Below are positions 20,109 to 39,773 of a stretch of DNA of 41,259 nt, one piece after another. The stretch's first letter is position 1, and every line of letters starts with the position of its first letter. The notes beneath the pieces are model-generated. The model saw only the letters and a program-made list of their open reading frames with translations, searched no databases and was not told the origin of the DNA. The position numbers and the translations under genes were made by a program. The DNA comes from Treponema sp. (GTDB lineage Bacteria > Spirochaetota > Spirochaetia > Treponematales > Breznakiellaceae), in assembly GCA_009781475.1 (NCBI GenBank), contig WQYB01000017.1, positions 1 to 41,259 of the forward strand, read 5' to 3'.

Positions 20109-22016
20109 ATGAAAACGCTGCTTTATAATAATAAGAATTCTAACCACGGAGTTTCACGGAGGTATTGGTATGAAAATCTTATTTTCCTCCGTGTTGCTCC
20201 GTGTACTCTGTGGTTTTTCTTCTTCTTTGTTATTATAGGTTTAAGTGCGCAGGTAAGGGATGATTCTGCTGCGGCGCAGCAATATGTTCAATGGGTACAA
20301 CAGGCGATTAACGAAGAGCGATGGGATGATGCAAGCGCCGCGCTTAAACGCGCAAGCGATTTTGAAAATGTTTCTTCTGATATTTCATATCTTAATGCAT
20401 TTGTTATTGATTATTACGGAATGGATCGGAATATTGTAGTTCAGAATCTGACTAAAGCAATCGATACAAACAGATGGGTAGTATATAACGAAAATATTGC
20501 ATTACTTTTCAAAGCCGAACAATATATCGCTCTTAGACATTATGTTTATGCTTTAAGTACTCTTGACCGCCTGGATGAAAGAACAGAAGCGGCAGGCAGT
20601 TTGCATATAAGAACAGAATCTGCAATGCTGCGTCTTTTGGCATTACGCGGAATGGCTTTGAATATTGAACCAAATTACGATCAGGCTTTTTATTTGGCGC
20701 AGTTTAGAAGCTATGTAATGTTAAACATGGACAGGTTTCCGCGAGACCCTCGTCCTTTGCGTATTTTCTTTGAGTATGCGCGTAACAGAAAACCTGATCA
20801 ACCGGAACTGCATGTTAGCGATATTAATTTACTGGATCTGGCTTTAAGGCGGCTTCCGTTTCTTTTGGAAACAGATCCCGAGCTCGCTTGGTTAGCCGCT
20901 CCTTTTATAAGAGATTTAGATACAGCCAAGCGTATTATAATGTCTTATCGTTCCGGCGGAATACCGCATATTCAAAACAGGGATTTTATGCCTCATCCTG
21001 CTTCTATCTCGATTGCATTAAATTTTGGGCTTATAGATGATATACAGGCGGCACAGGAATTATTTTCCGGAAACCGCGGGTTTAATTATCCTTTACCCGC
21101 ACATATAAAACCTGCAGGAAACCCTGTTTTAAATAAAGATATAATAACTGATGTGTATAAACTGCTTCGCAGTGAAGAAGGACGTGAATATTTTACAGAA
21201 AGACTTCATTCTTTTACAGGTATTATTTACACGGATGATGATAATGACGGGTATATTGACAGCTGTACATATTATATTTCCGGCGTAATTCAAGAGTATG
21301 TAATGGACAGAACCCAGGATAATGTTTTTGATTTTCAAATTACTATGTATAATGGTGTTCCCGATAGAGCAATAAATCGTATTACAGGGTTGGATGTATA
21401 TGCTTATGTAATTTGGGAACGTTATCCTTCTGTAAAAACAGTAGCAGTAGATAAACCTTTATATGAATATTTTACGTTTGGTCCTGCAGATTTTCAATAT
21501 TCGCCTGTTAATTTTATCGAACTAGGAGGAAGTAACACAGCTTCAGGTTTGTTATTTCCTGTTGTGGAGTATCAGTATATTTCTTTAACCCGCCGCACTC
21601 TTATGACATTTTGTTCAAGTCTTACCCGTCCCAGTACAGAGTTTGACAGAGCGGAAGAAACAATTTACATGAACCGCGGGATAATTATGCAGGTTGTTGA
21701 AACATTAAACGAAAATGGACAGCAGGTTTCTGTAACAGAATTTGACAGGGGTTTACCTGTAATTCAATATATCGATTTGGATTTAGACGGCAGGATGGAA
21801 ACAATACGCCGTTTTAGGGCTCCTCCGCCGGGTTATGAATGGGCGGATCTGCTGGATTACCGCAGATTAGTTGCTTCTTCAGAAAGCGACTGGTCGGGAG
21901 ACGGGCAGTTTAAAACAATGGAAGTGTATCAATTAGACGGTTCGGTTGTTTATTATTTTGATATGGACGGCAGCGGAGAGTGGACACATTCAGAAACCGG
22001 AAGAAGAAGCGAATGA
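20109..22016 (+). CDS. exported helical-repeat protein with Asp-rich loops; signal peptide partly encoded by a repeat
   Basis: A 635-residue protein that I cannot assign to a named family. Residues 1-48 form an unusual export signal: residues 12-36 are encoded by a palindromic element, then a Phe/Ile core and LSAQ cleavage site follow. The N-terminal half has TPR-like helices (INEERWDDASAALKRA). The C-terminal half has three Asp-rich loops (DDDNDGYID, DLDLDGRMET, DMDGSGEW) of the kind that bind Ca2+. AAGGAGG lies 13 bases before the ATG, a long spacing. It ends in ATGA overlap with the HtrA-like gene, so both are made together; that neighbour has the same ERWDD helix motif. Confidence 0.7.
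   Translation: MKTLLYNNKNSNHGVSRRYWYENLIFLRVAPCTLWFFFFFVIIGLSAQVRDDSAAAQQYVQWVQQAINEERWDDASAALKRASDFENVSSDISYLNAFVIDYYGMDRNIVVQNLTKAIDTNRWVVYNENIALLFKAEQYIALRHYVYALSTLDRLDERTEAAGSLHIRTESAMLRLLALRGMALNIEPNYDQAFYLAQFRSYVMLNMDRFPRDPRPLRIFFEYARNRKPDQPELHVSDINLLDLALRRLPFLLETDPELAWLAAPFIRDLDTAKRIIMSYRSGGIPHIQNRDFMPHPASISIALNFGLIDDIQAAQELFSGNRGFNYPLPAHIKPAGNPVLNKDIITDVYKLLRSEEGREYFTERLHSFTGIIYTDDDNDGYIDSCTYYISGVIQEYVMDRTQDNVFDFQITMYNGVPDRAINRITGLDVYAYVIWERYPSVKTVAVDKPLYEYFTFGPADFQYSPVNFIELGGSNTASGLLFPVVEYQYISLTRRTLMTFCSSLTRPSTEFDRAEETIYMNRGIIMQVVETLNENGQQVSVTEFDRGLPVIQYIDLDLDGRMETIRRFRAPPPGYEWADLLDYRRLVASSESDWSGDGQFKTMEVYQLDGSVVYYFDMDGSGEWTHSETGRRSE
20143..20214. repeat. palindromic element in the signal-peptide region (72 bp)
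   Basis: ACCACGGAGTTTCACGGAGG on the left is mirrored by CCTCCGTG-TTG-CTCCGTG-TACT-CTGTGGT on the right around an AT-rich loop. Its 72 bp equal 24 codons. It encodes the basic n-region and the LRVAPCTLW stretch that leads into the hydrophobic core. Confidence 0.85.
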
Positions 22017-25676: not shown

Positions 25677-28112
25677 ATGAAATACGGATATTTTGACAAT
25701 GATAAACGTGAATACGTAATAGACAAGGTCGATGTTCCTGCCTCCTGGACAAATTACATCGGCGTAAAAGATATGTGCGGTGTTTTTAATCACACTGCAG
25801 GCGGTTATCTTTTTTACAAAAGCCCAGAATACCACAGAGTAACGCGCTTTCGTCCCAACGGCGTTCCTATGGACAGACCCGGCCATTATGTTTATGTAAG
25901 GGATGATGAAACAGGCGAATATTGGACACTTTCCTGGCAGCCGGTTGGTAAGGATTTAAATTCCGCAAAATATACATGCAGACACGGTTTATCGTATGTA
26001 AAATATCAATGCGAATATTCAGGTATTTGCGGTGAGCAGACTCTTTTTATTCCTGTTGATGACCCGACAGAAATTTGGGATGTAAAACTTCGCAACGATT
26101 CCGGCAAAAAACGAAAACTAAGCGTATTCGGTTATGTTGAGTTTTCTTTTCATCATATAACAGTAGACAATCAGAATTTTCAAATGAGTCTTTATTGTTC
26201 GGGTTCATCATTTAAAGACGGTGTAATCGAACTTGATCTTTTTTATGAAGAAAAAGGTTTCCAGTACTTTACAGCTAACGCAGTCGGCGAAGATGTAAAA
26301 AATTTTGACTGCCTTCGCGATAATTTTATCGGCGCTTACAGAACGGAAACAAATCCAATCGCGGTAGAAAAAGGTTTTTGCTCCGGCTCGTTTGAACTTG
26401 GCGGAAATCACTGCGGCGCTTTAAAACAAACATTGGAAATAGCACCCGGTGAAGAGGCACGTCTTGTTTTCCTGCTTGGCGAAGGTAACAGGCAAACAGG
26501 CAAAGTTGCGCGTGATAAATACTGCGCTTCTAATTTTGCCGAAGTTGATGCCGCATTTAAAAAATTAAATAATTTTTGGGATGAAAAATTAAATAAATTA
26601 CAAATAACAACACCGCATGACGGTATGAATACAATGCTTAATATATGGACATTGTATCAAGCAGAAATAAATGTAATGTTTTCTCGTTTTGCTTCGTTTA
26701 TCGAAGTTGGCGGACGTACAGGTTTGGGTTACCGCGATACATCGCAGGATGCAATGATGGTTCCCCATTCTAATCCGCAAAAAAGCAAAAGCCGTCTTGT
26801 AGAACTTTTAAAAGGTTTAACCACACACGGATACGGGTTACATCTTTTTAGTCCTGATTGGTTTGAAAAACAAACGGAGCCTGCTTTTAAATCGCCTACA
26901 GTAGTGCCAACCCCTTCAAGGTCGCAGATGATTCACGGAATCGAAGATGTCTGCGCGGATGATGCGTTGTGGCTGATTCCTGCTATCGTTGAATATATAA
27001 AAGAGACAGGCGATTTTGGTTTTGCTGATGAACAGTACACTTATGCCGACACATTTGATCCTGACACAGGAGACGGTAAAAAAGAATCTGTTTTTGATCA
27101 CATGAAACGCATTTTAGATTTTTCTGCAAAAGAAATTGGATCGCATGGTATTTGTAAAGGTTTAAGAGCCGACTGGAATGATTGTCTTAATCTTGGAGGA
27201 GGAGAAAGCGCGATGGTTTCTTTCCTTCACCATTGGGCTTTAGTACATTTTATAGCACTCGCGAAAAAACTTAATCGTGATGTTTCCAATTACGAAAAAA
27301 TGCTTGTTACTGTAAAAGAAAGCTGCGAACGTGAACTTTGGAACGGAAGCTGGTATACAAGAGGTTTTACAGGTTCGGGTAAAAAAATTGGTTCTCCGGA
27401 AAACAAAGAGGGCAAAGTTCACATGGAATCAAATACATGGGCAGTACTTTCCGGAGCCGCCTCACACGAACATGGCAAAGCCGCGATGGATGCTGTCGAT
27501 CAGTATTTGTATACGCAGTACGGTTTAAAACTTTGTGACCCTGCTTTTTCACAGCCGGATGACTCTGTCGGTTTTGTTACCCGTGTTTACAAAGGTTTAA
27601 AAGAAAATGCTGCGATATTCAGCCATCCAAACCCGTGGGCATGGGCTGCAGAAGCAGTTCTTGGCAGGGGAGATCGGGCAATGAAATTTTACGATGCATT
27701 GTGTCCGTATAATCAGAATGACATGATCGAAGTGCGAAAATCAGAGCCGTACATGTATTGTCAGTTTATTGTAGGTCCCGATCACAGCGCATTTGGAAGA
27801 GCGCATCATCCGTTTATGACAGGCTCTGCAGGCTGGGCATATTTTGCCGCAACAAGGTTTATGCTTGGAATAAAACCTGACTTTGAAAGCCTTGTAATCG
27901 ATCCTTGTGTTCCAACTTCGTGGACAAAATTTAGTGTCCGCCGTGTTTGGAGAGATGCCGTGTATAATATTACTGTAGAAAACCCCAGCGGTGTAAGTAA
28001 AGGCGTAAAAGAATGCAAGGTAAATGGTCAAGTTGTTAGCTGTAATGGTGTTGCAGAAATCCCTGTACAGCCAAAGGGCAGCGAATGTAATATTACCGTT
28101 GTGATGGGGTAA
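25677..28112 (+). CDS. chbP: N,N'-diacetylchitobiose phosphorylase (GH94)
   Basis: The 811-residue protein follows the Vibrio chitobiose phosphorylase almost throughout as I remember it: MKYGYFDNDKREYVI start, SPEYHRVTRFRPNG, FIEVGGRTGLGYRDT, GICKGLRADWNDCLNLGGGES, and AIFSHPNPWAWAAEA. The catalytic acid is probably Asp499 in RADWND. It phosphorolyses diacetylchitobiose to GlcNAc-1-phosphate and GlcNAc in the cytosol. No signal peptide. No ribosome site is visible; the -10 box is 6 bases before the start. The GlcNAc kinase that would use the free GlcNAc is encoded at 30693. Confidence 0.93.
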   Translation: MKYGYFDNDKREYVIDKVDVPASWTNYIGVKDMCGVFNHTAGGYLFYKSPEYHRVTRFRPNGVPMDRPGHYVYVRDDETGEYWTLSWQPVGKDLNSAKYTCRHGLSYVKYQCEYSGICGEQTLFIPVDDPTEIWDVKLRNDSGKKRKLSVFGYVEFSFHHITVDNQNFQMSLYCSGSSFKDGVIELDLFYEEKGFQYFTANAVGEDVKNFDCLRDNFIGAYRTETNPIAVEKGFCSGSFELGGNHCGALKQTLEIAPGEEARLVFLLGEGNRQTGKVARDKYCASNFAEVDAAFKKLNNFWDEKLNKLQITTPHDGMNTMLNIWTLYQAEINVMFSRFASFIEVGGRTGLGYRDTSQDAMMVPHSNPQKSKSRLVELLKGLTTHGYGLHLFSPDWFEKQTEPAFKSPTVVPTPSRSQMIHGIEDVCADDALWLIPAIVEYIKETGDFGFADEQYTYADTFDPDTGDGKKESVFDHMKRILDFSAKEIGSHGICKGLRADWNDCLNLGGGESAMVSFLHHWALVHFIALAKKLNRDVSNYEKMLVTVKESCERELWNGSWYTRGFTGSGKKIGSPENKEGKVHMESNTWAVLSGAASHEHGKAAMDAVDQYLYTQYGLKLCDPAFSQPDDSVGFVTRVYKGLKENAAIFSHPNPWAWAAEAVLGRGDRAMKFYDALCPYNQNDMIEVRKSEPYMYCQFIVGPDHSAFGRAHHPFMTGSAGWAYFAATRFMLGIKPDFESLVIDPCVPTSWTKFSVRRVWRDAVYNITVENPSGVSKGVKECKVNGQVVSCNGVAEIPVQPKGSECNITVVMG

Positions 28113-28118
28113 ATTGTT

Positions 28119-29333
28119 TCAAAAATATTCTGTTTGGTGCTGCGGTCTTAAAGTAAAAACATTCTTTAAAGTATCAATGTTACATTTTACAACAATATCT
28201 TTATGCCTTGTATACATAGCATTTTCCAATGTACGGTAACCTGTAACAAGCTGGCTTAATGTTAAAATATCGCAGGTTATGTCGGCGTTTTTTGTTGTGG
28301 CAGAAACTTTAGCTCCTTCTTTTCCGAATTGTACCAGGTATTTTCCATTATTTACAGGTAAAGTTTTATCATCGGTTACTTCGATAACATATTCACCTTC
28401 GCCTTCGGCAGTACGCATAAGCTCTAATGCTGTCTTTACATTTATAACCCTTGTCATGTCTCTTGGCGTTGTATTTATATTTACAGCCCAGTCATCGCCG
28501 ATAAAATCATAAGCGTCGATAAAAGTTGGAGCCATCCATTTAAAATTTTCATATTGAGTGGAAAGTCCTCCGACAATTCCTAAAGCTCCGTATAATCCTT
28601 TTTTATCGATGAAGGCAAGCTCTGTTACTGCCATATTTGTATTACCGTCATCTTGAACAACCCTGTATTTAATATAACTGCGTGTTACTCCATTTTCATC
28701 TTTCCAAAGATACAGATACGATCCTTTTGCTGCCCAAGGGTCACCTTTTGCAAAACGTTTCCATGCGCGGTTGTCAGGCCAATAATCCCTGTGTACTGCT
28801 TGATTTATATTTTTAATATAGGCGCTGTGTACTTGTGAAAGTAATGTTGTATCATCATCGCCTTGAATACTGATAAACTCACCGTAAGGTTTAATCGATA
28901 AAAAATGTTTTGCGGTTATGGTAATGTTGTTTCTAACGCATGTAGTTTCGTAACCGAACTTGCGGTAAAAATCATGCGAAAAAGGAGAGAGGCTGGAAAA
29001 AATTACACCGTTATCGTAACTTTCCTGCAGCATTTTATCGAAGATGCGGCGCATATAACCGCCGCCTCGCGCTTCAGGCAAAGTTGCGACCCCGCCAATA
29101 CCTGTCATTTTGGCTCTTTTATTATCAAAGTTCATAAGGAAATCAATTTCGTATGTTCCTGCAACAAGATTCCCTTTTTCAAAAGCCGCCCAAACCCAGC
29201 TTTCAGGATGATCCAAAGGATCTCGTTCATTATTTGATTCGTCTGACGGGTCATAACGGTAATTAAAAGAAATCGCCTGCATTCTGGCAAACGCAGGCCA
29301 ATCATCTTTGGTAAGTCTTCGAATTTCTGTCAT
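28119..29333 (-). CDS. Eis-like GNAT acetyltransferase with SCP2-type C-domain
   Basis: The 404-residue protein has a GNAT domain first (about 1-150; GIGGVATLPEARGGGYMRRIF is the acetyl-CoA loop), a second GNAT-like domain and a sterol-carrier-like C-domain (about 300-400), the layout of the Eis family. These enzymes acetylate amines, such as aminoglycosides or protein lysines; the substrate here is unknown. ATG 29333 (MTEIRRLTKDDW) is preferred to 29342, since the predicted transcript starts about at 29332. It converges on chbP, with only 6 bases between the stops. Confidence 0.8.
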   Translation of the reverse strand: MTEIRRLTKDDWPAFARMQAISFNYRYDPSDESNNERDPLDHPESWVWAAFEKGNLVAGTYEIDFLMNFDNKRAKMTGIGGVATLPEARGGGYMRRIFDKMLQESYDNGVIFSSLSPFSHDFYRKFGYETTCVRNNITITAKHFLSIKPYGEFISIQGDDDTTLLSQVHSAYIKNINQAVHRDYWPDNRAWKRFAKGDPWAAKGSYLYLWKDENGVTRSYIKYRVVQDDGNTNMAVTELAFIDKKGLYGALGIVGGLSTQYENFKWMAPTFIDAYDFIGDDWAVNINTTPRDMTRVINVKTALELMRTAEGEGEYVIEVTDDKTLPVNNGKYLVQFGKEGAKVSATTKNADITCDILTLSQLVTGYRTLENAMYTRHKDIVVKCNIDTLKNVFTLRPQHQTEYF

Positions 29334-29338
29334 ACTTA

Positions 29339-29367
29339 ACATTAATAGCGTTTATAAAGGTTGTCAA
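29339..29367 (-). promoter_or_regulatory. promoter of the GNAT gene
   Basis: Minus strand: TTGACA (29367-29362), 17 bases, TAATGT (29344-29339). The ATG at 29333 follows the -10 after 5 bases, so the mRNA would have no leader. Confidence 0.5.
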
Positions 29368-29377
29368 TGGAAGTGAT

Positions 29378-29406
29378 TTGACTTTTATTAATGATTTTGA
29401 TAAATT
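29378..29406 (+). promoter_or_regulatory. promoter of the GH4-nagK operon
   Basis: TTGACT (29378-29383), 17 bases, TAAATT (29401-29406). The ATG at 29413 follows after 6 bases. No Shine-Dalgarno is present. Confidence 0.55.
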
Positions 29407-29412
29407 GTTATA

Positions 29413-30693
29413 ATGCGTGAATTAAAAGCAACGGTAATTGGTGCTGGCAGCACTTATACGCCTGAATTAATCAGGGGATTTATCGACAGGCAGGATAGTC
29501 TTAATTTTAAATCATTTTATTTAGTTGACATCAATAAGGAAAAGCTCGATGTCGTAGGCGGTCTTGCAAAAAGAATGCTGGAATCAAAAGGTTTTAAAGG
29601 TCAGATTGTTTTAATGCAAGACCTGGATGAAGCGATAAAAGACGCCGATTATATTTTTGCACAGATTCGCGTTGGCGGAATGGAAGCGCGTATCCGCGAT
29701 GAAAAAATTCCTTTAAAGTACGGATTATTGGGGCAGGAGACTACAGGCGTCGGCGGTTTTATGAAAGCACTTCGGACAATTCCTGTCATGATGGACATTG
29801 CTAAACGTATCGAAAAACTTGCTCCAGAGGCGTGGCTTGTAAATTTTTCCAATCCTTCCGGTATTGTCGCCGAAGCGCTTATGAACCATACAAAAGTTAA
29901 AATGATAGGTCTTTGCAATTGTTTTGTAAATATGAAAGCAGGTATTGCTAAAAATATCGGCACTGATGATTTTGATTATGAATATCTTGGATTAAATCAT
30001 TTAAGCTGGATAACTTCCGTTACTGCAAACGGTGAAAATATGCTTGAAAAATTGGGAAAATCTGCCGGTGAAAAATTAAAAAATATTCCTGATGTTGATT
30101 ATGATGATGAACTGCTTGCGGCAGTTCCTGCGATCCCTTCATATTATTTAAGTTATTTTTATTTGCGTGATGAGCAAATTCAAAACTGTCTTAAAGCCGA
30201 AAAAACTCGCGGTGAAAAATGCGTTATTATAGAAGACGCTTTAATCGAAAAATACAAAGACCCAAACCTTAATGACAAACCAAAAGAACTTGAAGAAAGA
30301 GGCGGCTCTCTTTATTCAACCGCAGCTGTTTCTGTTGTTGACGCAATCGAAAACGATAAAAATGAATATCATGTAATCGGCGTAAAAAATAATGGCGCTA
30401 TTCCATTTATGGCAGATGATGATGTTGTAGAAATTAAATGTACGGTAAACCGCAAGGGTGCTTCTCCCGTACCGGTTAAAAATGCAGATAACCTTTATAT
30501 AAAAGGAACCATGCAAGCGGTCAAGGCTTACGAAAAACTTACTGTAAAAGCTGCAATAAACGGCAGTAGAGCAGATGCGATTGCAGCGCTTATGGTTCAT
30601 CCGTTAATCGGCGATTATAAAAAAGCAAAAGCCGTGTTTGACGAAATGGCAAAAGCCAACGCAGAATACTTACCAAAAGGTTTATTGCTTTAA
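29413..30693 (+). CDS. NAD-dependent GH4 glycosidase (6-phospho-beta-glucosidase type)
   Basis: The 426-residue protein has the GH4 Rossmann start (ATVIGAGSTYTPELI), GGMEARIRDEKIPLKYGLLGQETTG, the NFSNPSG segment and the metal-site Cys in GLCNCF, then GLNHLSW. GH4 enzymes hydrolyse glycosides through transient oxidation at C3, using NAD and Mn2+. Most act on 6-phospho sugars; E. coli ChbF of this family cleaves chitobiose-6-phosphate. Here the neighbouring kinase and chbP suggest an amino-sugar or beta-glucoside substrate, but the sequence alone cannot fix it. It overlaps the kinase gene by 1 base (TAATG). Confidence 0.85.
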   Translation: MRELKATVIGAGSTYTPELIRGFIDRQDSLNFKSFYLVDINKEKLDVVGGLAKRMLESKGFKGQIVLMQDLDEAIKDADYIFAQIRVGGMEARIRDEKIPLKYGLLGQETTGVGGFMKALRTIPVMMDIAKRIEKLAPEAWLVNFSNPSGIVAEALMNHTKVKMIGLCNCFVNMKAGIAKNIGTDDFDYEYLGLNHLSWITSVTANGENMLEKLGKSAGEKLKNIPDVDYDDELLAAVPAIPSYYLSYFYLRDEQIQNCLKAEKTRGEKCVIIEDALIEKYKDPNLNDKPKELEERGGSLYSTAAVSVVDAIENDKNEYHVIGVKNNGAIPFMADDDVVEIKCTVNRKGASPVPVKNADNLYIKGTMQAVKAYEKLTVKAAINGSRADAIAALMVHPLIGDYKKAKAVFDEMAKANAEYLPKGLLL

Positions 30694-31688
30694 TGGAATA
30701 CATAATCGGCATTGACGGCGGCGGAACAAAAAGTCACCTTGCGTTATTTGACATCGAAGGAAAACTTGTTGATTTTGGTCATTGGGGAACGCTTAACCAC
30801 GAAGGGATGAAAGGATCGTTCGATCAATTTCATGATGAAACTAAAGAATTTGTAAAACAAATACTTTCAAAAAATAATATTAAAATTGAACAGGTAGTTT
30901 CTGCTGTATTCGGTATAGCGGGTGTTGATACAAAATGGCAGCATGATGTTATTTCGCAGAAAATGGAAAAAATAGGTTTTAAAAAATTTACTCTTGCAAA
31001 CGATGCCTACCTTGGAATACCTGCGGGTAGCCCGACAGGCGTAGGTATTTGCGCCATAAACGGAACAGGCTGCACGGTAGTGGGAGTTAATTCGCAGGGG
31101 AAAATGCTGCAAATAGGAGGCGTCGGTTATGTTTCCGCTGACTACGGCGGCGGCGGAATAATCGGAAGAGAAGTAATATCCGCTGTATATAAGGAAATAT
31201 TACGCAAAGGCGAAAAAACTTTACTTACCCCTATTTTATTTGAATACCTGGGTTTGGATCTGAATGATAAATATGATTTTGTTGAAAGAGTTTATGAAAA
31301 ATTCGGCGATCATACTTTAAGTATTCATACATGCGGAAGATTTACTTTTGAAGCTGCGCATAAAAATGATAAAGTAGCGCTTGATATATTACGCAGTGTC
31401 GGAGAAAATTATGCGAACGGTATATGCGCAATGATAGAAGAGCTTGAGTTTGACAAAACAAAAGAAGATATAAATATTGTACTTGCCGGTTCTGTATTTG
31501 TTAAAGGCGATCACCCAATGAGTATCGATACATTAAAAGAAAAACTGGGAAAAGACAAGCCGGATTGCAGTTTAAAGTATACTGTATTAAAAGTACCTCC
31601 TGTTGCAGGAGCCGCTTTTTGGGCATTTAACAATTTAAATATCAGCGACAAAAAAGCATATTACGAAAAAGTTTGTAACCAATTATAA
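30693..31688 (+). CDS. N-acetylglucosamine kinase, BadF/BadG family
   Basis: The 331-residue protein has the ASKHA phosphate-1 motif IGIDGGGTKSHLALFD, FGIAGVDT, the AINGTGCTVVGV segment, DYGGGGIIGREV, and the adenosine motif VLAGSVFVKG. This matches the N-acetylglucosamine kinase branch of the BadF/BcrA ATPase family. It would convert GlcNAc from chitobiose phosphorolysis to GlcNAc-6-phosphate. Coupled to the GH4 gene by a 1-base overlap. The long repeat at 31711 follows and may end its transcript. Confidence 0.82.
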   Translation: MEYIIGIDGGGTKSHLALFDIEGKLVDFGHWGTLNHEGMKGSFDQFHDETKEFVKQILSKNNIKIEQVVSAVFGIAGVDTKWQHDVISQKMEKIGFKKFTLANDAYLGIPAGSPTGVGICAINGTGCTVVGVNSQGKMLQIGGVGYVSADYGGGGIIGREVISAVYKEILRKGEKTLLTPILFEYLGLDLNDKYDFVERVYEKFGDHTLSIHTCGRFTFEAAHKNDKVALDILRSVGENYANGICAMIEELEFDKTKEDINIVLAGSVFVKGDHPMSIDTLKEKLGKDKPDCSLKYTVLKVPPVAGAAFWAFNNLNISDKKAYYEKVCNQL

Positions 31689-31710
31689 AAAAATCACAAA
31701 AGAAATAATA

Positions 31711-31792
31711 ACCACAGAGGACACGGAGGAACACGGGGTTAAAGATTAAGATATCGGATTGCGACTCCGTGAAACTCCGTGTCCTCCGTGGT
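31711..31792. repeat. intergenic palindromic element (82 bp)
   Basis: ACCACAGAGGACACGGAG continuing to CACGGGG on the left pairs with CTCCGTGTCCTCCGTGGT on the right (about 23 of 28 positions). This is the only complete copy outside a reading frame. It lies between the convergent nagK and GH94 genes and could act as a two-way terminator, as T-rich flanks occur on both strands. Confidence 0.85.
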
Positions 31793-31806
31793 AAAAAAAT
31801 CTTAGA

Positions 31807-34293
31807 TCAACCTAGAATTACTTCAATCTTATGAACTTTACCGTCACTGTGCGGTTTGATTAAATCACCTGTAATTACATTTCCGTCAACTGTGATTGTT
31901 TTTACTCCATGTTCAGCGCCGTTTGGATTTTTTACAAGGATTTCGTAAACTGCTCCGCGGAAACTGCGTGTTGCCGAAAACTCCTTCCAGTCCTTGCATA
32001 TTTTAGGATTAATGCGAAGACCATCGTAATCGGGCTGTATTCCCAATACCCACTCTGTAAGAGATTGAAACATTGTAGGAGCTGTTCCTGTAAGCCATGT
32101 GTGCCCGCCTTGTCCAAATCCAAAACCGCCTCTGCCTCGCACGTATTCAGGGTATACATACGGCTCGCTCTTGTATCGATCCTGATCGCTTGCAAGGTTT
32201 TCAGGTAAACATTTTTCATAATGTTTGACAGCATCTGTTCCGCGGTTTAGTATCGCATAACTTTGTACCAGCCATGCGTTAAGGTGCATAAAAATAGAAC
32301 CGTTTTCTTTCATTGCAGGAGGCTCTTTTTCGATGTTCCACGACCTTACAGGAAGTTCTTCACGCTGGGCTAGCCCTGAATAAACAGGGAAACAAATCTG
32401 CGCGCCAAACTCACTGTCTAAATGTTCTTCTACCTTTTTAATAACTATTTTTGAACGGTTTTCATCGGCGGTTTCACAGTTTATTCCAAATGCTTGCGGT
32501 TCAAGGAATATTTTTGCTTCTGCGTTTTCACTTCTGCCCAGATCTTTTTTATTCGGAACAAGCGACAACGCGCGAATGTAATAACCTTCTTTGTCGATTG
32601 CGTATTTTTCAAGAGCGTCATATATTTTTTTCGCTCTAGTTGTGTATTCATCTGCTAGAGAAGTTTCTTTGTTAGCTGCTTTTAATAATTCTGCAGTGTC
32701 GATCATTACTTTGTAAAGCTGCTGCGCTACCATTACACTTTCTACATCTTTACTCCATTCGCCGCCGACACGCAATTCGTTAAGGTCGTCATTCCAGTCG
32801 CAGTCTTTCATGTACGGCAGGTCACGATCACTTCTGTCTGTCCAGACACGGTCGATTGCTTTTTGAATGTGTTCAAGGATAGTGCCGTAGATATCGCCTT
32901 GTTTTTCATGTACTTCGGCATAAGCTGTTTTTTCATCAAGGAATGAAAAATCGCCTGTTTCTTTTATGTATTTGATTATCGCCATTGGAAGCCAGATAGG
33001 ATCGTCGCTTGCCTGTATGTTTTTATTTCCCGGCTGGTCAATAAAAAAGTTGTGATACGAAACACCGTTGGAAAACATTTGTGTAGAAATATGTTTAAGC
33101 GATTCTTTTACTTTTTCGGCAGAATACGGCAAGTTAAAATTAACATCCTGTAAAATGTCACGGAAACCCCAGCCGTATTCATAACCGGTGTGAAAGCGTG
33201 ATTTCATTCTGTTAAGAATATATACAACACGGCATTGATACTGCAGCCATTTAAACGCGCGGTTAATTTTTATACTTGGTGTAGAAATCACATACTGGCT
33301 CATCATGTCTGTCCACCATTTTTTTACTTCGTTTAGCATTTTTTGGCGGTTGTCCGTATTTTTTACCATCTCTGTCATTTTTTTAAGGAACACTTTTTTG
33401 TTTAAGTAGTAATCCTTTGTCGAACCTGCAATTAATGCGATTGCAAACTCAATTTTTTCACCGGCTTTAAGTGTAACTTTGTTACGGAAAATGCCGCAAG
33501 TTCTGCGCAAGTATGCCTGGTCTGTGTTTGAAAGCGGTTTTCCATCGATTATACGCAGCGGGTCAGAAAGTGATCTGAATCTGTTGCCTAAAAAACGCTC
33601 TTCGTTGGTTTCGTATTCGGTATTGGAAGTATTTAGTGTCGAGAAAAATGCAGCAACATTTCCTAACATTCCGCTGATTTCGTTTTTATCATCGTCTACA
33701 CTTGTTCCGTGATTTCTGCGGAATACAATCGCATTTAAATCCTTGTCCCAGTTTGCGCCGCCGAAAAATCCGTCGTTATCCCCTGCTAGCAGACGTACAA
33801 GCGCATCTCCCATGTGAATCGGAACAAAGGGATAAATTTCCAATTCCTTTGTTTGACCTGTTGTGTTTTCCAAAACAATGTTTTGAATCCAGCCGTCAAA
33901 TTCTTTTGGCACAAACATTGTTTGTTCGGTTTTGACTCCCATATACTTGGAATCGAATTTAATATAACCAAAACCTAGTGTTGTTTTAAATTCCTGACCT
34001 TCTTTTTTAACCGGCTGCCATGTTGTTGTAAAAAAATCACGGGTTTTGGTATCAACGATATAGCAGTAACGCCCTTTATTGTCTGCATCATTTAAATGAA
34101 GCTGTGTATCGATAAAAGTATTTTCATGCGTGCCGCGTACGTCAAATCCGCCGCCTGTATAACTTACACCGGAACAAAATGTTTGTGTTCCGCTTTGTTC
34201 AGGTCTTATTAAATAATGCAGCCAGGGTTCCGGTGTGCGGGGATTAAAAATTTCAAACTCGTCTTTTTCATTAAACTTTCCGTATTCTGCCAT
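31807..34293 (-). CDS. GH94 glycoside phosphorylase of unassigned specificity (paralogue 1)
   Basis: The 828-residue protein has the GH94 catalytic region: FHTGYEYGWGFRDILQDV, DDPIWLPMAIIKYIKETGDFSFLDE, and the acid motif CDWNDDLN. It is nearer to the cellobiose phosphorylase type in these motifs than to chbP, and closest to paralogue 2 in the same operon. It would split a beta-glucoside or related disaccharide with phosphate in the cytosol. The substrate cannot be read from the sequence. AAAGGAG at the end of the preceding gene gives tight coupling (12 bases between stop and start). No signal peptide. Confidence 0.88.
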   Translation of the reverse strand: MAEYGKFNEKDEFEIFNPRTPEPWLHYLIRPEQSGTQTFCSGVSYTGGGFDVRGTHENTFIDTQLHLNDADNKGRYCYIVDTKTRDFFTTTWQPVKKEGQEFKTTLGFGYIKFDSKYMGVKTEQTMFVPKEFDGWIQNIVLENTTGQTKELEIYPFVPIHMGDALVRLLAGDNDGFFGGANWDKDLNAIVFRRNHGTSVDDDKNEISGMLGNVAAFFSTLNTSNTEYETNEERFLGNRFRSLSDPLRIIDGKPLSNTDQAYLRRTCGIFRNKVTLKAGEKIEFAIALIAGSTKDYYLNKKVFLKKMTEMVKNTDNRQKMLNEVKKWWTDMMSQYVISTPSIKINRAFKWLQYQCRVVYILNRMKSRFHTGYEYGWGFRDILQDVNFNLPYSAEKVKESLKHISTQMFSNGVSYHNFFIDQPGNKNIQASDDPIWLPMAIIKYIKETGDFSFLDEKTAYAEVHEKQGDIYGTILEHIQKAIDRVWTDRSDRDLPYMKDCDWNDDLNELRVGGEWSKDVESVMVAQQLYKVMIDTAELLKAANKETSLADEYTTRAKKIYDALEKYAIDKEGYYIRALSLVPNKKDLGRSENAEAKIFLEPQAFGINCETADENRSKIVIKKVEEHLDSEFGAQICFPVYSGLAQREELPVRSWNIEKEPPAMKENGSIFMHLNAWLVQSYAILNRGTDAVKHYEKCLPENLASDQDRYKSEPYVYPEYVRGRGGFGFGQGGHTWLTGTAPTMFQSLTEWVLGIQPDYDGLRINPKICKDWKEFSATRSFRGAVYEILVKNPNGAEHGVKTITVDGNVITGDLIKPHSDGKVHKIEVILG

Positions 34294-34305
34294 GTAATAC
34301 TCCTT

Positions 34306-36534
34306 TTATTTTCTTGAAAGTCCCTTTTTCTTTTTTTCTGATTTTTCTTCGTATAAAACACTGTCGGCGCAAAGCATTGACGCATCAAAACATTCTTTTG
34401 TTGCAGTTTCCAAAACAACACAGCCAATACTGCCTTCTATTTTATATGGATGAAGATTTTTATTATTGTATTCATCAAGTTTTTGCCGGATTCTGTTAAC
34501 TACATTATTTCCGCTTTCTTTTGATCTTACTGATGAAAATACTACAAACTCATCTCCGCCCATTCTTCCGATAATATCTTCTTCTCTTAAGGCTTCTTTA
34601 ATTATTTTTGCAAAAGTATAAATGGCAATGTCACCTTCATTATGTCCGTAAGTATCGTTGATAAATTTTAATCCGTCCATATCCATAAATAAAACGACCG
34701 ACATTATATCGTTGTTTCTGTGTAAATGCGCCATTCTTGAATAAACAAACTGGAAAAGCCCTCTTCTGTTTAAAAGCCCTGTAAGTTCGTCTGTTATGGA
34801 TAATGTTTGTATTTTTGAAATTAATTCAGCTCCTTTTACTGCTGTTGATATATTTATTCTTAAGGATTCATAGCCGTCCACAGGAATTCTGGAATCGTAA
34901 GGAAAAAGAGCTATTCCTACTTCTTCGTCTTTTATAAAAAGCGGCATAAATAAAAAAGAGCGTCTTTCCCTTTCAAAATCAAATCTGCTGATAGTTGAAT
35001 AATCAGAAAATAAAATTGGGTTCCAGCGGTTGTGCTGCATGTTAAATTTATTATCTCTGTCAAATCCAATCAATGTATCTATTGTTCTGTCTGCATCGGC
35101 ATCGTCGTTTCTTACAGGATCATGATATAAGCCGACCAATGCGGTATGAATTGAAAGCTCAGGTAAAGAGCGGCTCATTTCATCAGCCAGAGAATCAATG
35201 TCGTATAACAAAACCAGATTGCTTCCAACCCTCCTTATAAGAAGGCGGGTATTATTTATAACAAACTCCTTTGCTTTTCCTTCTTTGGAACGGATATCGT
35301 GAACAAGCGAAGTGGCAAATGCCAATGTAGAAAGTATCGAATGTGCATATTTAATCTCGCTGTGATGATGTTCAATGCCGTTTGCAAAGACAATAAGCGC
35401 TTCGTGCCAGGGATTGAAATCATTTGAATGATAATTGTAATCTACCAAAATATCATTTAGAAGGTATAAAAATTTATTTTTGGAAAACGGTTCTTCTTTA
35501 ACTTTTTCTACCAGAGCCGCTGCCCAATCTTTAATTTGCTGCTGTGAAACAATATTATCGAAAATTGATATAAATTTTTGATGTAAAAAAGAAAATAAAA
35601 AATCCTGTTTTTCAGGTGTTTTATCGGATACAGGATCAATGTCCGAAAACTTTTTTTCAAGGCATCCGCAGGATTGACGGGCTACAAATATTGGAGGCAC
35701 ATAGGTTACTTCGTTTATCTGCTCTCCTTTAATTTTTTTAAAAAGAGTATCAGCGCTGATAAAACCAATTTCGAAAAAATCCTGCCGGGAAGTGCTTATC
35801 GAGGGAATGAATGTCGCAGAAAATCTGTCGTCGTCAAAACCTGTTACCGCTATATCAGAAGGCACTGTTATATTTTTATTTTTTAATTCGATTAAAACTC
35901 CCATTGCAGTTTCATCGTCACTTGCTACAATTGCGTCAAAAGGAATTTTTCTTTTCTCAAGTAATTCTATAACAGCATCCTGACCGCTTTCAGGGCTGAA
36001 ATAACCCGGTAAAACATACTGTTCATCAAAGGTTATACCGTTAGCTGCAAGAGCTTTTTTGTATCCGGTAAGACGTTCTTCCGCTTCCTGGTGTCCGTCA
36101 GGTCCTTTTACAAACGCTATTTTCTTCTTGTTGTGAAATTGTATTAAATGTTCAACCACATTATATATTCCATTTATATTATCTACCAATACAGACGGAA
36201 TACCGGGTATTGAATGAGAAATTGAAACAACAGGAAGATGTGCAGGGATTTTTGCTGCATACTTTTCTACATTTTTAATTCCGATATTTTGAGCAATAAA
36301 ACCGGAAAGCATTATTAATCCGTCCAGGGATTTTGAATTTTTTATGGTTTCAAAACATGTTTCGTAGTGCATTACAAAGTTGTAATTGGTTGTTTGATAT
36401 GTTCCAAAAAACGCTGTTAAATGAATGTCATTTACTTCTGCATATTTTTCAATACCGCACCAGACATCATACTGGCAAGTATTGTCTAAAGTGGGAAAAA
36501 CAACACCGAAGTGAAGCCGCTTTTTGTTTTCCAT
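34306..36534 (-). CDS. cytosolic LacI-type sugar sensor fused to GAF-like and GGDEF (diguanylate cyclase) domains
   Basis: A 742-residue protein. Residues about 5-280 are a periplasmic-binding-protein fold of the LacI/GalR sensor type (FVKGPDGHQEAEERLTGY, IVASDDETAMGVL, VTGFDDDRF), but there is no DNA-binding helix-turn-helix and no signal peptide or membrane segment, so it senses in the cytosol. A Cys motif (SCGC, near 285) follows, then a helical and GAF-like middle (about 400-570). The GGDEF domain starts at SITDELTGLLNRRG; GGDEF is intact at 659-663 and an RxxD inhibition site (REED, 650-653) sits exactly 5 residues before. It should make c-di-GMP in response to a sugar ligand. It lies between two GH94 genes. 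Confidence 0.9.
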   Translation of the reverse strand: MENKKRLHFGVVFPTLDNTCQYDVWCGIEKYAEVNDIHLTAFFGTYQTTNYNFVMHYETCFETIKNSKSLDGLIMLSGFIAQNIGIKNVEKYAAKIPAHLPVVSISHSIPGIPSVLVDNINGIYNVVEHLIQFHNKKKIAFVKGPDGHQEAEERLTGYKKALAANGITFDEQYVLPGYFSPESGQDAVIELLEKRKIPFDAIVASDDETAMGVLIELKNKNITVPSDIAVTGFDDDRFSATFIPSISTSRQDFFEIGFISADTLFKKIKGEQINEVTYVPPIFVARQSCGCLEKKFSDIDPVSDKTPEKQDFLFSFLHQKFISIFDNIVSQQQIKDWAAALVEKVKEEPFSKNKFLYLLNDILVDYNYHSNDFNPWHEALIVFANGIEHHHSEIKYAHSILSTLAFATSLVHDIRSKEGKAKEFVINNTRLLIRRVGSNLVLLYDIDSLADEMSRSLPELSIHTALVGLYHDPVRNDDADADRTIDTLIGFDRDNKFNMQHNRWNPILFSDYSTISRFDFERERRSFLFMPLFIKDEEVGIALFPYDSRIPVDGYESLRINISTAVKGAELISKIQTLSITDELTGLLNRRGLFQFVYSRMAHLHRNNDIMSVVLFMDMDGLKFINDTYGHNEGDIAIYTFAKIIKEALREEDIIGRMGGDEFVVFSSVRSKESGNNVVNRIRQKLDEYNNKNLHPYKIEGSIGCVVLETATKECFDASMLCADSVLYEEKSEKKKKGLSRK

Positions 36535-36543
36535 AAAATATAC

Positions 36544-39114
36544 TTAAGCCATTGTTACTTCAACATTAACACTGCCGCCGTTTGCAAATGAAAGAGGAAT
36601 AATGTTTCCTTCGATTTCTTTACCGTCAACTTTTATTGCTTTAACGCCTTTTTGAACGCCGTTAGGGTTGGAAAAATTAATGTGAAAAGTTGTATTTCTG
36701 AATGTTCTTACAGCAGAGAATTTTTTCCATTCAGGTGTTACGCATGGATCAATTAAAAGACCGTTATATCTTCTGCGTACGCCGAATATCCAGTCGATAA
36801 GAACATTTAAACGGGTAGGAGCGGTTCCTGTAAGCCATGTGTGTCCGGCTTTTCCGTGGTCGTTCGACGCAGGACCTGAAACATATTCGGGATATACAAA
36901 ACGTTCTGCAGCGTAAAGGTACGGATCATCTTTGCTTGCAACCGCAGGAAGCGTTTTAATATAAATATCGTGAGCTTCTTTTCCGTAACCGTGTATACAA
37001 AGCGATGCTATATACCATGATTCAAGGTGTCTGAACTCTCCGCCGTTTTCTTTTTTGCCGGGTGCGTTGCGTTTCCAGCCTTGAGTATCAACAGGCAGTT
37101 TACCCTGTACAAGTCTTTTATCGCTTTGACAAATTGCAATACCGTATTTATCGTCGATATCTCTTTCGCATACTTTTTTACATGCGTCAAATCTTGCCTT
37201 GTCGGCGATACCTGAAAATCCTGCCCATGCAATCGGTTCAAAGAATGTTAAACCGTCGGTTTTACTGCTGCCTAAATCGACAGGAGCGCCTGCGCCTTCC
37301 ATTTCTTCCAGTATGGAGCTTAATTCAAGACCGGTATTTCCAAGGTTCATGCCTTTTAGTGTTGCTCTGAAATCTTTAGAAGCGACTGCGCGGATATAAT
37401 TCCCGTCTTTGTCGATACATTTTTTTTCTACTTCTTCTTTAACTGTTTTTGCTTTAACTTCGTAGTCAGCTGCCAGCTCTTTTTCGATTCCATGCGTATT
37501 AAATAAATCGATCATATCGTTTAAGGCTTTGTAAAGCTGCTGCGCTGCCATTGTCGAAGTGCTTGTAAAATTGCCGGATAAATCATCGTTCCAATCTGCC
37601 ATCAGCATATATGGCAAACCATTGTCGCTTTGTTTCCATACTTTTGCGATTGCTACTTTTAAATGATCAAGAATTGATCCTTCCTTAGGCGGCAGCTCTT
37701 CTTTTTCATCGCAATAAGGAACAACTTCGTTCAAGAATTCAAAGTCACCGCTTTCTTTAATGTATTCGCATACAGCGTATACAAGCCATAATGGATCATC
37801 ACAGCATACAAAACTTTTATTTCCTGCCGCTGATACAAAGAAATTATGATATACAAACCCGTCAGAAAACATTTGCCTTGCGGTAAATTTAATTAATTCT
37901 TTTGCAGGTTTGGGATCATACGGTAAAAGAGCGAGTATATCCTGTAAAATATCGCGGAAGCCGTAGCCATATTCAAAACCTGAATGAAAACGGGATTTCA
38001 TTCTGTTAAGGAGCGCTACCATTTCACATTGATACTGCAGCCATTTGTATGACGGATTTAATATTTCATCGATACCTTCAATGTTAATCGACAATTTTCC
38101 AAGCTGCTTTTTCCAATCTATTTTAACTTCTTCAAGCATTTTTTTTGCGTTATCGGGATTAAGCGCTTCGCCAAGGAATTTTTTGATCGATTTTTTACCG
38201 TCGCAGTAATAATCCTCGGTTGAAGGAGTTGCGCTTATAATTACAAGTTCTTTTGTTTCTCCTGCTTTTAATGTAAAAGAGTTTTTAAGCGTCGAAAGCG
38301 AAGAACAATTTTCATGCGCATCACGGTTCGGCAGATCCCAATCTTCGCTAAGAGCCGCAGGATTTCCCATTGTATTTGAATGATGTCCTACAAATTCATC
38401 GTAACGTGTTGCAAATTGATTATTCGCAAGGGATGAAGTGTGTACAAGAACTTTACCGAACATCCACTTTACTTTGCTGCCGTCACTGTCAAAATCGCGT
38501 CCAAAACCATATCTCCAGACAACTGCATTTATTTCTTTGTCGATTATAGCGCCGCCCATCATAAGTGAATTAAAACCGCTGAATTGAATGTCGCGGGCAT
38601 CGCCTATATTTACAGGGTTTACATTAAACATCGTTACTTTGCGATCTTTACTGTCATTGTTTTTAATTTTAATTATTTGAATCATCGCGTCATAACCATT
38701 AGGAACAAAGTGTAATGTTTCAACATCAAAATTATTATATGAAGTATTAAATTTATGGTAACCAAAACCAAAAGTTGTTTCGAGTGTTTGTTCTTTATTT
38801 AAAACAGGATACCAGGCATTGGAAAAATATTTTCCGTCTTCAGTGCGAAAATATGCGTAGGTTCCAAGCATTCGGGTTTTATACGGATCTTCATGAACAA
38901 AACCGTTTAATATATCACCTTCCTGTGTTCCAATTCTTGCAAAAGAAGTACCATTGTTTGTCATTCCCCAGCAAAGAGTATCGATAGGTTTTTTATTCCT
39001 TCTTGCCAAAAGCATAAGCCAGGGTTCTCTGGTCATATCTCCGTATTTTTCTTTAATTACAACTTCATTTTCTGAATTAAAACTAAACTGCCCATTATTT
39101 CTTAAATTTGCCAT
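36544..39114 (-). CDS. GH94 glycoside phosphorylase of unassigned specificity (paralogue 2)
   Basis: The 856-residue protein is the first gene of the operon. It shares with paralogue 1 the blocks YKWLQYQC, LNRMKSRFHSGFEYGYGFRD, YHNFF, DDPLWL and ADWNDDLSG, the last with the likely catalytic Asp. Both differ from chbP in the loop before the catalytic Asp. It has extra segments around residues 590-640 (a GNTGLELSS region) that paralogue 1 lacks. The specificity is unknown. Own promoter at 39176-39148, AAGGA 9 bases before the ATG, and 9 bases to the sensor gene downstream. Confidence 0.88.
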   Translation of the reverse strand: MANLRNNGQFSFNSENEVVIKEKYGDMTREPWLMLLARRNKKPIDTLCWGMTNNGTSFARIGTQEGDILNGFVHEDPYKTRMLGTYAYFRTEDGKYFSNAWYPVLNKEQTLETTFGFGYHKFNTSYNNFDVETLHFVPNGYDAMIQIIKIKNNDSKDRKVTMFNVNPVNIGDARDIQFSGFNSLMMGGAIIDKEINAVVWRYGFGRDFDSDGSKVKWMFGKVLVHTSSLANNQFATRYDEFVGHHSNTMGNPAALSEDWDLPNRDAHENCSSLSTLKNSFTLKAGETKELVIISATPSTEDYYCDGKKSIKKFLGEALNPDNAKKMLEEVKIDWKKQLGKLSINIEGIDEILNPSYKWLQYQCEMVALLNRMKSRFHSGFEYGYGFRDILQDILALLPYDPKPAKELIKFTARQMFSDGFVYHNFFVSAAGNKSFVCCDDPLWLVYAVCEYIKESGDFEFLNEVVPYCDEKEELPPKEGSILDHLKVAIAKVWKQSDNGLPYMLMADWNDDLSGNFTSTSTMAAQQLYKALNDMIDLFNTHGIEKELAADYEVKAKTVKEEVEKKCIDKDGNYIRAVASKDFRATLKGMNLGNTGLELSSILEEMEGAGAPVDLGSSKTDGLTFFEPIAWAGFSGIADKARFDACKKVCERDIDDKYGIAICQSDKRLVQGKLPVDTQGWKRNAPGKKENGGEFRHLESWYIASLCIHGYGKEAHDIYIKTLPAVASKDDPYLYAAERFVYPEYVSGPASNDHGKAGHTWLTGTAPTRLNVLIDWIFGVRRRYNGLLIDPCVTPEWKKFSAVRTFRNTTFHINFSNPNGVQKGVKAIKVDGKEIEGNIIPLSFANGGSVNVEVTMA

Positions 39115-39147
39115 TGTGATATCCTTTTCTTGTTATTATTTACTGTA

Positions 39148-39176
39148 ATTTTATCATTACAATGTGAAGTCGTCAA
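39148..39176 (-). promoter_or_regulatory. promoter of the GH94-sensor-GH94 operon
   Basis: Minus strand: TTGACG (39176-39171), 17 bases, TAAAAT (39153-39148). The leader is about 27 bases with an AAGGA ribosome site. No LacI-type operator palindrome is evident, in line with the sensor lacking a DNA-binding domain. Confidence 0.6.
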
Positions 39177-39203
39177 TGTTATATAATTAGAGGAAATTTT
39201 GCA

Positions 39204-39773
39204 TTATAACGGCATTTTTAGGTAGGTTTTTATGGCTTTTGCGATAGAATTAAAGGCAATGTCATTAAAATCAATCTCTTCAGGTCTTAAAAATTTTACG
39301 CCGCTAACTTCATCCTCTTCCAGTTTGAGATCTTCCGTTTTTAATCCGGGAGCATATACATAAAAAAACATATCACAGGTATTGTATTTTATCCCCTTGT
39401 ATTCATATACATTTGAAAATGAAGCGAAAAGTTTAAATACATCACTTAAATTTTTTCCTTCAGGTATAGGCGGAGTCCAATTAAGCTCTTCTTTTAATTC
39501 ACGGTAAAGACCTTCATAAATACCTTCACCTGCATCGACAAAACCGCCTGGCAGGTCGAGCTTTCCTTTGCCGGGCTCCCTGCCGCGTACCAGAAGCACA
39601 AGGCGTTCTGATTCTGAAGAATCTTTGCCGTCAGCTTCAGGCACTATTATTAGACAGCCGTTTGCTGCGGCATTGTTATGAAAGTATAAAAAGTCACAAT
39701 CGGAACACTTAAAACATTTACCGTCTTCAAAAACTATTTTTTTTGAAGCACATTTAGGACAGAAATTAAACAT
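39204..39773 (-). CDS. NUDIX hydrolase with N-terminal zinc ribbon
   Basis: The 189-residue protein starts with a four-Cys zinc ribbon (FCPKCASKK, then CFKCSDCDF) and continues with a NUDIX fold (GGFVDAGEGIYEGLYRELKEELNW; the usual Gly after EE-x is Asn). NUDIX enzymes split nucleoside diphosphates linked to another group; with such a zinc ribbon some act on NAD(H) or sugar nucleotides. ATG 39773 is chosen because the only -10-like box (TATAAT, 39796-39791) places the transcript start near 39784, so a GTG at 39788 is less likely. It precedes the GH94 operon, which has its own promoter. Confidence 0.85.
   Translation of the reverse strand: MFNFCPKCASKKIVFEDGKCFKCSDCDFLYFHNNAAANGCLIIVPEADGKDSSESERLVLLVRGREPGKGKLDLPGGFVDAGEGIYEGLYRELKEELNWTPPIPEGKNLSDVFKLFASFSNVYEYKGIKYNTCDMFFYVYAPGLKTEDLKLEEDEVSGVKFLRPEEIDFNDIAFNSIAKAIKTYLKMPL

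Follow-up and report, generated by a model that had tools for sequence, protein, structure and literature searches.

The window analysed here is positions 1 to 41,259 of contig WQYB01000017.1 of a Treponema sp. genome (GCA_009781475.1; 41,259 nucleotides). On its minus strand, at 31807-39114, open reading frame (ORF) calls give a trio consisting of GH94a, then a gene referred to here as the sensor, then GH94b, the outer two encoding homologues of GH94-family glycoside phosphorylases. The sensor is read here, with somewhat better than even confidence, as a horizontally acquired cytosolic diguanylate cyclase, probably responsive to a sugar, that was inserted between an older pair of GH94 genes. 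Because it lies between two adjacent GH94 genes it is probably transcribed together with them, and the gene order suggests co-expression rather than the identity of the ligand. The features of the trio are as follows.

36544-39114, minus strand: GH94a, homologue of GH94-family glycoside phosphorylases (856 amino acids; Pfam Glyco_hydro_94 2.9e-66, supersandwich 7.8e-27)
36535-36543, minus strand: gap of 9 bases between GH94a and the sensor
34306-36534, minus strand: sensor, with LacI-type binding domain, helical and GAF-like middle, signalling helix and GGDEF domain (742 amino acids; Pfam, AlphaFold model, Foldseek)
35665-36534, minus strand: LacI-type (type I periplasmic-binding-fold) ligand-binding domain of the sensor, residues 1-290 (Foldseek)
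34795-35622, minus strand: middle region of the sensor, residues 305-580, with four helices, long helix, GAF-like part and signalling helix (pLDDT 87.3 in a separate model)
34546-34587, minus strand: RxxD (R650/D653) and GGDEF (659-663) motifs (motif reading, alignment A1)
34294-34305, minus strand: gap of 12 bases between the sensor and GH94b, with a ribosome-binding-like AAAGGAG immediately ahead of GH94b
31807-34293, minus strand: GH94b, homologue of GH94-family glycoside phosphorylases (828 amino acids; Pfam 7.6e-80)

The gene order and both gap lengths had been given in the first-pass annotation of this DNA and are confirmed by the ORFs and the Pfam matches. In the proposed mechanism, the LacI-type domain would bind an intracellular small molecule that is probably sugar-like, and the binding signal would pass via the helical and GAF-like middle and the signalling helix to the GGDEF domain. 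Two GGDEF domains would then pair and the synthesis of cyclic di-GMP (c-di-GMP) would change, with feedback through the RxxD site. The gene would have been gained by the common ancestor of the window genome and the sister genome, G010, landing between adjacent GH94 genes.

Domain architecture and predicted output of the sensor

The sensor is matched by the Pfam families Peripla_BP_3 (residues 127-289), Peripla_BP_1 (9-279) and GGDEF (580-736; PF00990, 2.3e-34). No LacI helix-turn-helix (HTH) was matched by Pfam, so that the N-terminal HTH which defines the LacI/GalR transcription regulators is missing, and in the AlphaFold model the first strand of the binding domain forms the very start of the protein. 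Hydrophobicity over 19-residue stretches peaks at a mean of 1.2 on the Kyte-Doolittle scale, which makes a membrane segment unlikely. These properties support a soluble, cytosolic protein, in agreement with the first-pass annotation, which had seen no HTH, signal or membrane segment and had placed the ligand inside the cell.

The model, built on a 23-row alignment (mean predicted local distance difference test score, pLDDT, 84.9; predicted template modelling score, pTM, 0.64), divides the protein into the binding domain (1-290), four helices (313-389), a long helix (397-441), a GAF-like part (446-545) and a signalling helix (552-580), followed by the GGDEF domain. The N-terminal domain was recognised as a type I periplasmic-binding fold of LacI-family sequence by Pfam, by sequence comparison with the Protein Data Bank and by Foldseek. 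The middle region matched no Pfam family. Its best Foldseek match (residues 305-580) was the GAF domain of PDE5A (E-value 2.1e-4, template modelling (TM) score by query 0.38); the top ten matches have TM scores by query of 0.29-0.44, and one match alone reaches an E-value <= 0.001. The term GAF-like, already used in the first-pass annotation, here denotes a predicted fold that is nearest to GAF domains and may be of this type.

The GG(D/E)EF signature and the upstream RxxD inhibition site that mark GGDEF diguanylate cyclases are both intact, as previously annotated. In alignment A1 (23 rows) RxxD is kept in every row and GGDEF in 22, L028 having SGDEF; the alignment excludes L024, with a split frame, an edge-cut L010 copy, the L011 sensor fragment, L030-L032, whose matches are confined to the GGDEF part, and the loci from whole-genome searches. 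Based on these motifs the sensor, a predicted diguanylate cyclase, should make c-di-GMP. Other c-di-GMP parts are present in the genome, namely six further places similar to the GGDEF part and four PilZ matches over the curated cut-off. Effects of c-di-GMP on motility and surface behaviour are well known and, by analogy, an output of this kind is plausible for the sensor.

The sensor shares its ligand-domain fold with the LacI/GalR regulators (CcpA, CelR, RbsR, LacI), together with an Arg and an Asp that align with ancestral LacI, but differs from them in lacking the DNA-binding HTH and in having a GGDEF domain as its output. With cytosolic-sensor GGDEF cyclases (GAF-GGDEF and similar) it has in common the GGDEF domain and RxxD site, the signalling helix and a tentatively GAF-like middle, whereas its N-terminal sensor is a LacI-type domain and not a receiver, PAS or phytochrome domain. 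No paper describing a protein with a LacI-type domain and a GGDEF domain was recognised in the portion of the openly licensed PubMed Central literature consulted. A signal has been identified for few of the enzymes of c-di-GMP. As the LacI-type sensor is soluble and fused to the cyclase, it could be purified and screened with a panel of sugars, which makes its signal directly testable.

Placement within the GH94 pair and origin of the sensor

The sensor is found (E-value <= 1e-40) in two of the 39 genomes of the genus, those of the window and of its sister, in which the proteins are 87% identical. GH94a is present at 81-96% identity in five other genomes of the genus: it is 96% identical in the sister, 81-86% in G022, G026 and G035, and split over two contigs in G014. 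The pair occurs without the sensor in G026 and G035, where GH94b starts 11 and 8 bases after GH94a, respectively. In G022 and G014 the two genes are separated by an ORF of 365 residues (L036:377-1474 and L038:1093-2190), which in G022 is a polysaccharide deacetylase (Pfam 5.1e-8), the G014 counterpart being judged by sequence. Because the pair exists without the sensor in two relatives and with a deacetylase in two others, and the sensor is restricted to two of 39 genomes, the sensor is a probable latecomer, inserted between GH94 genes that were already adjacent. The simplest history would be a single gain on the branch leading to the window genome and G010, and the slot between the two genes seems prone to gene gain.

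Between the window and its sister the ratio of nonsynonymous to synonymous divergence (dN/dS) of the sensor is 0.080, indicative of purifying selection, with the fastest evolution in its middle region (dN 0.114). The dS values are similar for the sensor (0.92), GH94a (0.93) and GH94b (0.78), and a different age of the sensor and its flanks between these two genomes was therefore rejected.

Relatives were sought with short peptide patterns, a scan that favours close relatives, in a collection in which each of 84,980 species is represented by a single genome. It returned 24 loci, 18 of which (L009-L026) match most of the sensor length at 50-87% identity. All 18 carry sample codes of a study of metagenome-assembled genomes (MAGs) from higher termites, in agreement with the part of that study consulted (PMC7024585). 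The termite hosts are Embiratermes, Labiotermes, Termes, Cornitermes, Microcerotermes and Neocapritermes, and the bacteria belong to the Defluviitaleaceae, Oscillospiraceae, Lachnospiraceae and Chitinivibrionia, plus the sister Treponema, through which the window genome is also probably of termite-gut origin. The full-length relatives at 49-65% identity are termite-gut MAGs of the Bacillota and Fibrobacterota, with a further one, L120, at 55% in a genome of the same Fibrobacterota family.

Whole-genome searches of 15 genomes behind these loci gave one to four sensor copies each, some matches being one gene split. An Oscillospiraceae MAG has four close-set copies (L010:3-10229; 53-61% identical to the window protein), the first of which is followed by a GMP-synthase-domain gene. 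At L024:6148-8369 a copy is present as two overlapping frames of 554 and 220 amino acids, through either gene breakage or misassembly.

Matches at an E-value <= 1e-60 were obtained in 10 of 295 genomes from the order of one Defluviitaleaceae MAG and in 2 of 250 from the family of one Oscillospiraceae MAG, and all 12 are already-known termite MAGs. The family of the Chitinivibrionia MAG has matches in all five genomes (35-65% identity) and the phylum Fibrobacterota in 8 of 167. In the Spirochaetota, 57 of 392 genomes, the window genome included, match at an E-value <= 1e-30; the matches other than the window are 25-44% identical, the full-length ones at 30-32% and the remainder partial, with single domains up to 44%. 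The Spirochaetota, Defluviitaleaceae-order and Oscillospiraceae-family genomes are samples of larger groups, and the best 2, 3 and 4 candidates per genome were scored in these sets, respectively, and the best 6 in the Fibrobacterota. As distant matches extend across the Spirochaetota and close ones are restricted, the combination of LacI-type and GGDEF domains is a widespread kind, of which the window protein represents a narrow clade. Other proteins of this kind from the Spirochaetota and Fibrobacterota (L063-L065, L121-L129) align over nearly their full length at 28-38% identity. They differ from the window protein, which falls in a 23-row clade whose members with names are all termite-gut MAGs, and adjacency to GH94 is seen solely for the window and its sister.

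In a 35-row tree, from which L027-L029 of alignment A1 are excluded, this clade (20 rows from A1, two further termite copies and L120) has support of 100/100 and Fibrobacterota rows lie just outside it. The window and sister proteins join L017 (Chitinivibrionia) and L120 with support of 88/88. This suggests that the sensor was probably gained horizontally from a gut Fibrobacterota (Chitinivibrionia)-like donor, and the pattern of insertion suggests a route by which a signalling gene can pass between phyla sharing a gut and enter a metabolic operon.

The ligand and the neighbours of sensor relatives

The best Foldseek matches of the binding domain are ancestral LacI (apo and with d-fucose) and CcpA, with CelR bound to cellobiose at rank 32. 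In the phmmer alignment Arg154 and Asp234 of the sensor pair with an Arg and an Asp of ancestral LacI, whose equivalents in E. coli LacI, Arg197 and Asp274, contact sugar. Residues E150, A151, E152 and R154 do not vary across the 20 rows compared, which are the window, its sister and 18 further rows from termite MAGs. In the same rows, 15 pocket positions, which we chose by alignment to known LacI-family residues, have a mean conservation of 0.94 compared with 0.69 for the domain, a value reached by none of 20,000 random position sets. The ligand is probably a small sugar-like molecule within the cell, the kept Arg and Asp being suggestive of a sugar.

The LacI/PurR fold also serves non-sugar ligands. 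That the domain senses a purine or another small metabolite is quite unlikely in our judgement, although the sequence matches include PurR structures, a GMP-synthase-domain gene directly follows one relative, and the loop PDGHxEAExR, present in most rows, differs from ancestral LacI at D146, G147, H148 and E152. A sugar is favoured over such ligands by the top fold and sequence matches, which are to ancestral LacI and CcpA, and by the aligned Arg and Asp.

The first-pass annotation had taken the ligand from the operon, proposing that a disaccharide or its phosphorolysis product sets the c-di-GMP level directly. Its domain order, cytosolic location, motifs and LacI-like fold stand; the step from gene order to ligand is weakened by the probable late addition of the sensor to an older enzyme pair. 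BLAST searches with the window genes found no GH94 next to the sensor relatives at 31 other loci (17 at L010-L026 and 14 at L131-L144), several of which are cut by contig ends. Among the loci examined GH94 thus adjoins the sensor solely in the window and its sister, and the other neighbours vary, including an aldehyde-dehydrogenase-family gene (proA by eye), an argA-like gene, a Na/Pi transporter, HSP90, a GMP-synthase domain, FtsX and others. A conserved regulator of a sugar operon was rejected on this basis, the neighbours varying even among orthologues. The relatives without an adjoining GH94 have largely the same pocket residues as the window sensor, which favours a similar ligand across gene contexts over one specific to GH94. 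The ligand is more likely a molecule met by the many gut bacteria that carry the subfamily than a substrate or product of the GH94 enzymes, and gene order by itself can mislead on the ligand of a sensor.

A ligand that is a GH94 substrate (a beta-linked disaccharide) or product (a sugar 1-phosphate), with phosphorylase flux setting c-di-GMP directly, is accordingly considered unlikely. It would fit the tight gene order, with a sensor frame that stays intact under purifying selection in the window and sister genomes, the location of the sensor in the same cytosol as the enzymes, and a fold that resembles, among others, CelR with cellobiose. It would also fit two Fibrobacterota genomes in which an unrelated phosphorylase lies downstream of the sensor relative: a GT35 glycan phosphorylase (Pfam; L134:4305-6818) after 137 bases and a candidate counterpart of the same length and similar start (L135:9349-11862) after 152 bases. 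GH94 and GT35 phosphorylases can both yield glucose 1-phosphate. Against it, besides the contexts and pocket described above, four genus relatives keep both GH94 genes without the sensor, and the substrates of GH94a and GH94b cannot be assigned by sequence.

Both flanking proteins, which are 40% identical to each other, contain GH94 catalytic and supersandwich domains (Pfam) and the DWND motif, features shared with the cellobiose phosphorylase 3qde/8ho9 and the chitobiose phosphorylase 1v7v. The best solved relatives of GH94a are cellobiose phosphorylases (2.7e-73), as are those of GH94b (3qde/8ho9, about 1e-113, full length with DWND kept); these are too distant for a known substrate, and its assignment was given up. 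The chitobiose-phosphorylase-like gene of the window is a third GH94 (25677-28112), which matches chitobiose phosphorylase over its whole length with 1070 bits, so that chitobiose is probably its substrate.

Chance insertion into a permissive slot, in which the sensor is kept for a function of its own and co-expression with GH94 is incidental or tolerated, is judged less likely than not. In two relatives the slot is taken by an unrelated deacetylase and in two others it is empty, and the sensor relatives adjoin genes of housekeeping type (aldehyde-dehydrogenase-family, argA-like, HSP90, part of a GMP synthase). It is opposed by the same placement being kept in two genomes at a dS of about 0.9, and by the glycan-active genes found downstream of some relatives. 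A GH2 gene follows the relative at L022 by 6 bases and a GH5 gene overlaps that at L144 by 4 bases; in addition, a GH4 gene is divergent from the relative at L018 and a polysaccharide deacetylase lies upstream at L137. The first-pass annotation had suggested recording phosphorylases beside related fusions: no GH94 was found, as described, and GT35 was, at L134. Its reservation that such fusions might never occur near sugar genes does not hold, since GH2, GH5 and GT35 lie directly downstream of other members.

These contexts were counted among 35 sensor ORFs. A co-directional downstream gene within 300 bases is present in 18, which, minus two tandem copies, give 12 distinct contexts after merging by hand on shared synteny; 14 convergent rows and three with gaps above 300 bases are excluded, genes are greedy ORFs and L143 (glyS) was named by eye. 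The downstream gene is glycan-active (GH2, GH5, GT35) in 3/12 contexts without the window and 4/13 with it. As a control, 40 genes were drawn at random from the 207 eligible non-adjacent genes (150 residues or longer) of the same loci. One of the 40, a GH16 gene, encodes a glycan-degrading enzyme; the sample also contains a peptidoglycan lytic transglycosylase, a GT2 and a sugar transporter, none of them scored as glycan-active. One-sided Fisher tests against 1/40 give 0.034 for 3/12 and 0.010 for 4/13. Over all downstream contexts, several of them without a Pfam scan, 3/28 gives 0.19 and 4/29, with the window, 0.095, the 3/28 count weighing in favour of chance insertion. When the transglycosylase is counted in the control the values become 0.074 (3/12), 0.027 (4/13), 0.33 (3/28) and 0.20 (4/29). 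As the count is post hoc it is treated as a lead only, and a glycan link of the subfamily is possible but weak. It is considered decidedly improbable that the sensor is a mobile glycan-sensing cyclase which crosses phyla in termite guts, settles repeatedly before unrelated glycan enzymes (GH94, GT35, GH5, GH2) and couples the local pathway to a signal common to all of them, for which glucose 1-phosphate or a common disaccharide would be candidates; the count over all contexts, just 3/28, lowers the probability of this reading.

Several observations weigh against the favoured history of a horizontally acquired, probably sugar-responsive cyclase inserted into an older GH94 pair. None of the 11 genus genomes with ratings of 90% completeness or more and 5% contamination or less has the sensor, neither carrier being among the 11, and many of the 39 genomes are less complete, so that a missing match is not proof of absence in every case. 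The window genome, in 216 contigs, is a draft, as are the named relatives, which are MAG records. Support for a Fibrobacterota donor is moderate, an earlier 23-row tree having left the backbone unresolved. The pocket positions G144-P145, E150-A151, R154 and GFDD are also found in ancestral LacI, and position 206, aligned with an Asn of ancestral LacI, carries D in 11 of the 20 rows and N in the other 9, so that ligands may differ between members. Finally, glycan-active genes recur downstream of relatives, and the placement beside GH94 could have been selected for function.

A pocket signature unique to the subfamily was considered and dropped, as pocket residues such as E150, A151 and R154 are common to ancestral LacI and do not mark the subfamily. 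Genes of flagellin or flagellar hook-length type occur near some relatives (L144:9347-10714, L131:11621-12706, L020:10068-11741), a raw occurrence.

Transcription signals and adjoining genes

Two further features lie outside the trio.

39148-39176, minus strand: promoter-like site TTGACG-17-TAAAAT, with TG before the -10 (count at chance level)
31712-31791, minus strand: long hairpin 3' of GH94b, built from a dispersed genome-wide repeat (fold and repeat arms)

The single clear promoter of the first-pass annotation was not recovered as such. On both strands of 31000-39600, 25 sigma-70-like sites were found compared with 24.2 expected by chance, TTGACG-17-TAAAAT being the best, and no conserved promoter site was present in the aligned upstream regions of four genus relatives; the sister contig ends inside GH94a, and the comparison was made with these four others.

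The fold of 31689-31812 has an energy of about -46 kcal/mol, with hairpin arms at 31712-31728 and 31775-31791, and the hairpin is a plausible end of the transcript. The repeat CCACGGAGNNCACGGAG occurs at 52 exact places in the genome, compared with 0 for a reversed-pattern control. Two inverted copies form the strong hairpin at 31712-31791 and a further copy lies at 20197-20213.

Beside the trio, 25677-31688 (plus strand) comprises the chitobiose-phosphorylase-like GH94, an oppositely oriented acetyltransferase, and then a GH4 gene and a BadF/N-acetylglucosamine-kinase-like gene, likely a chitobiose or amino-sugar pathway. The acetyltransferase (28119-29342, minus strand) has GNAT and SCP2-type domains and is Eis-like but under the NCBIfam cut-off. 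Its dN/dS of 0.116 is the highest among seven genes compared with the sister genome.

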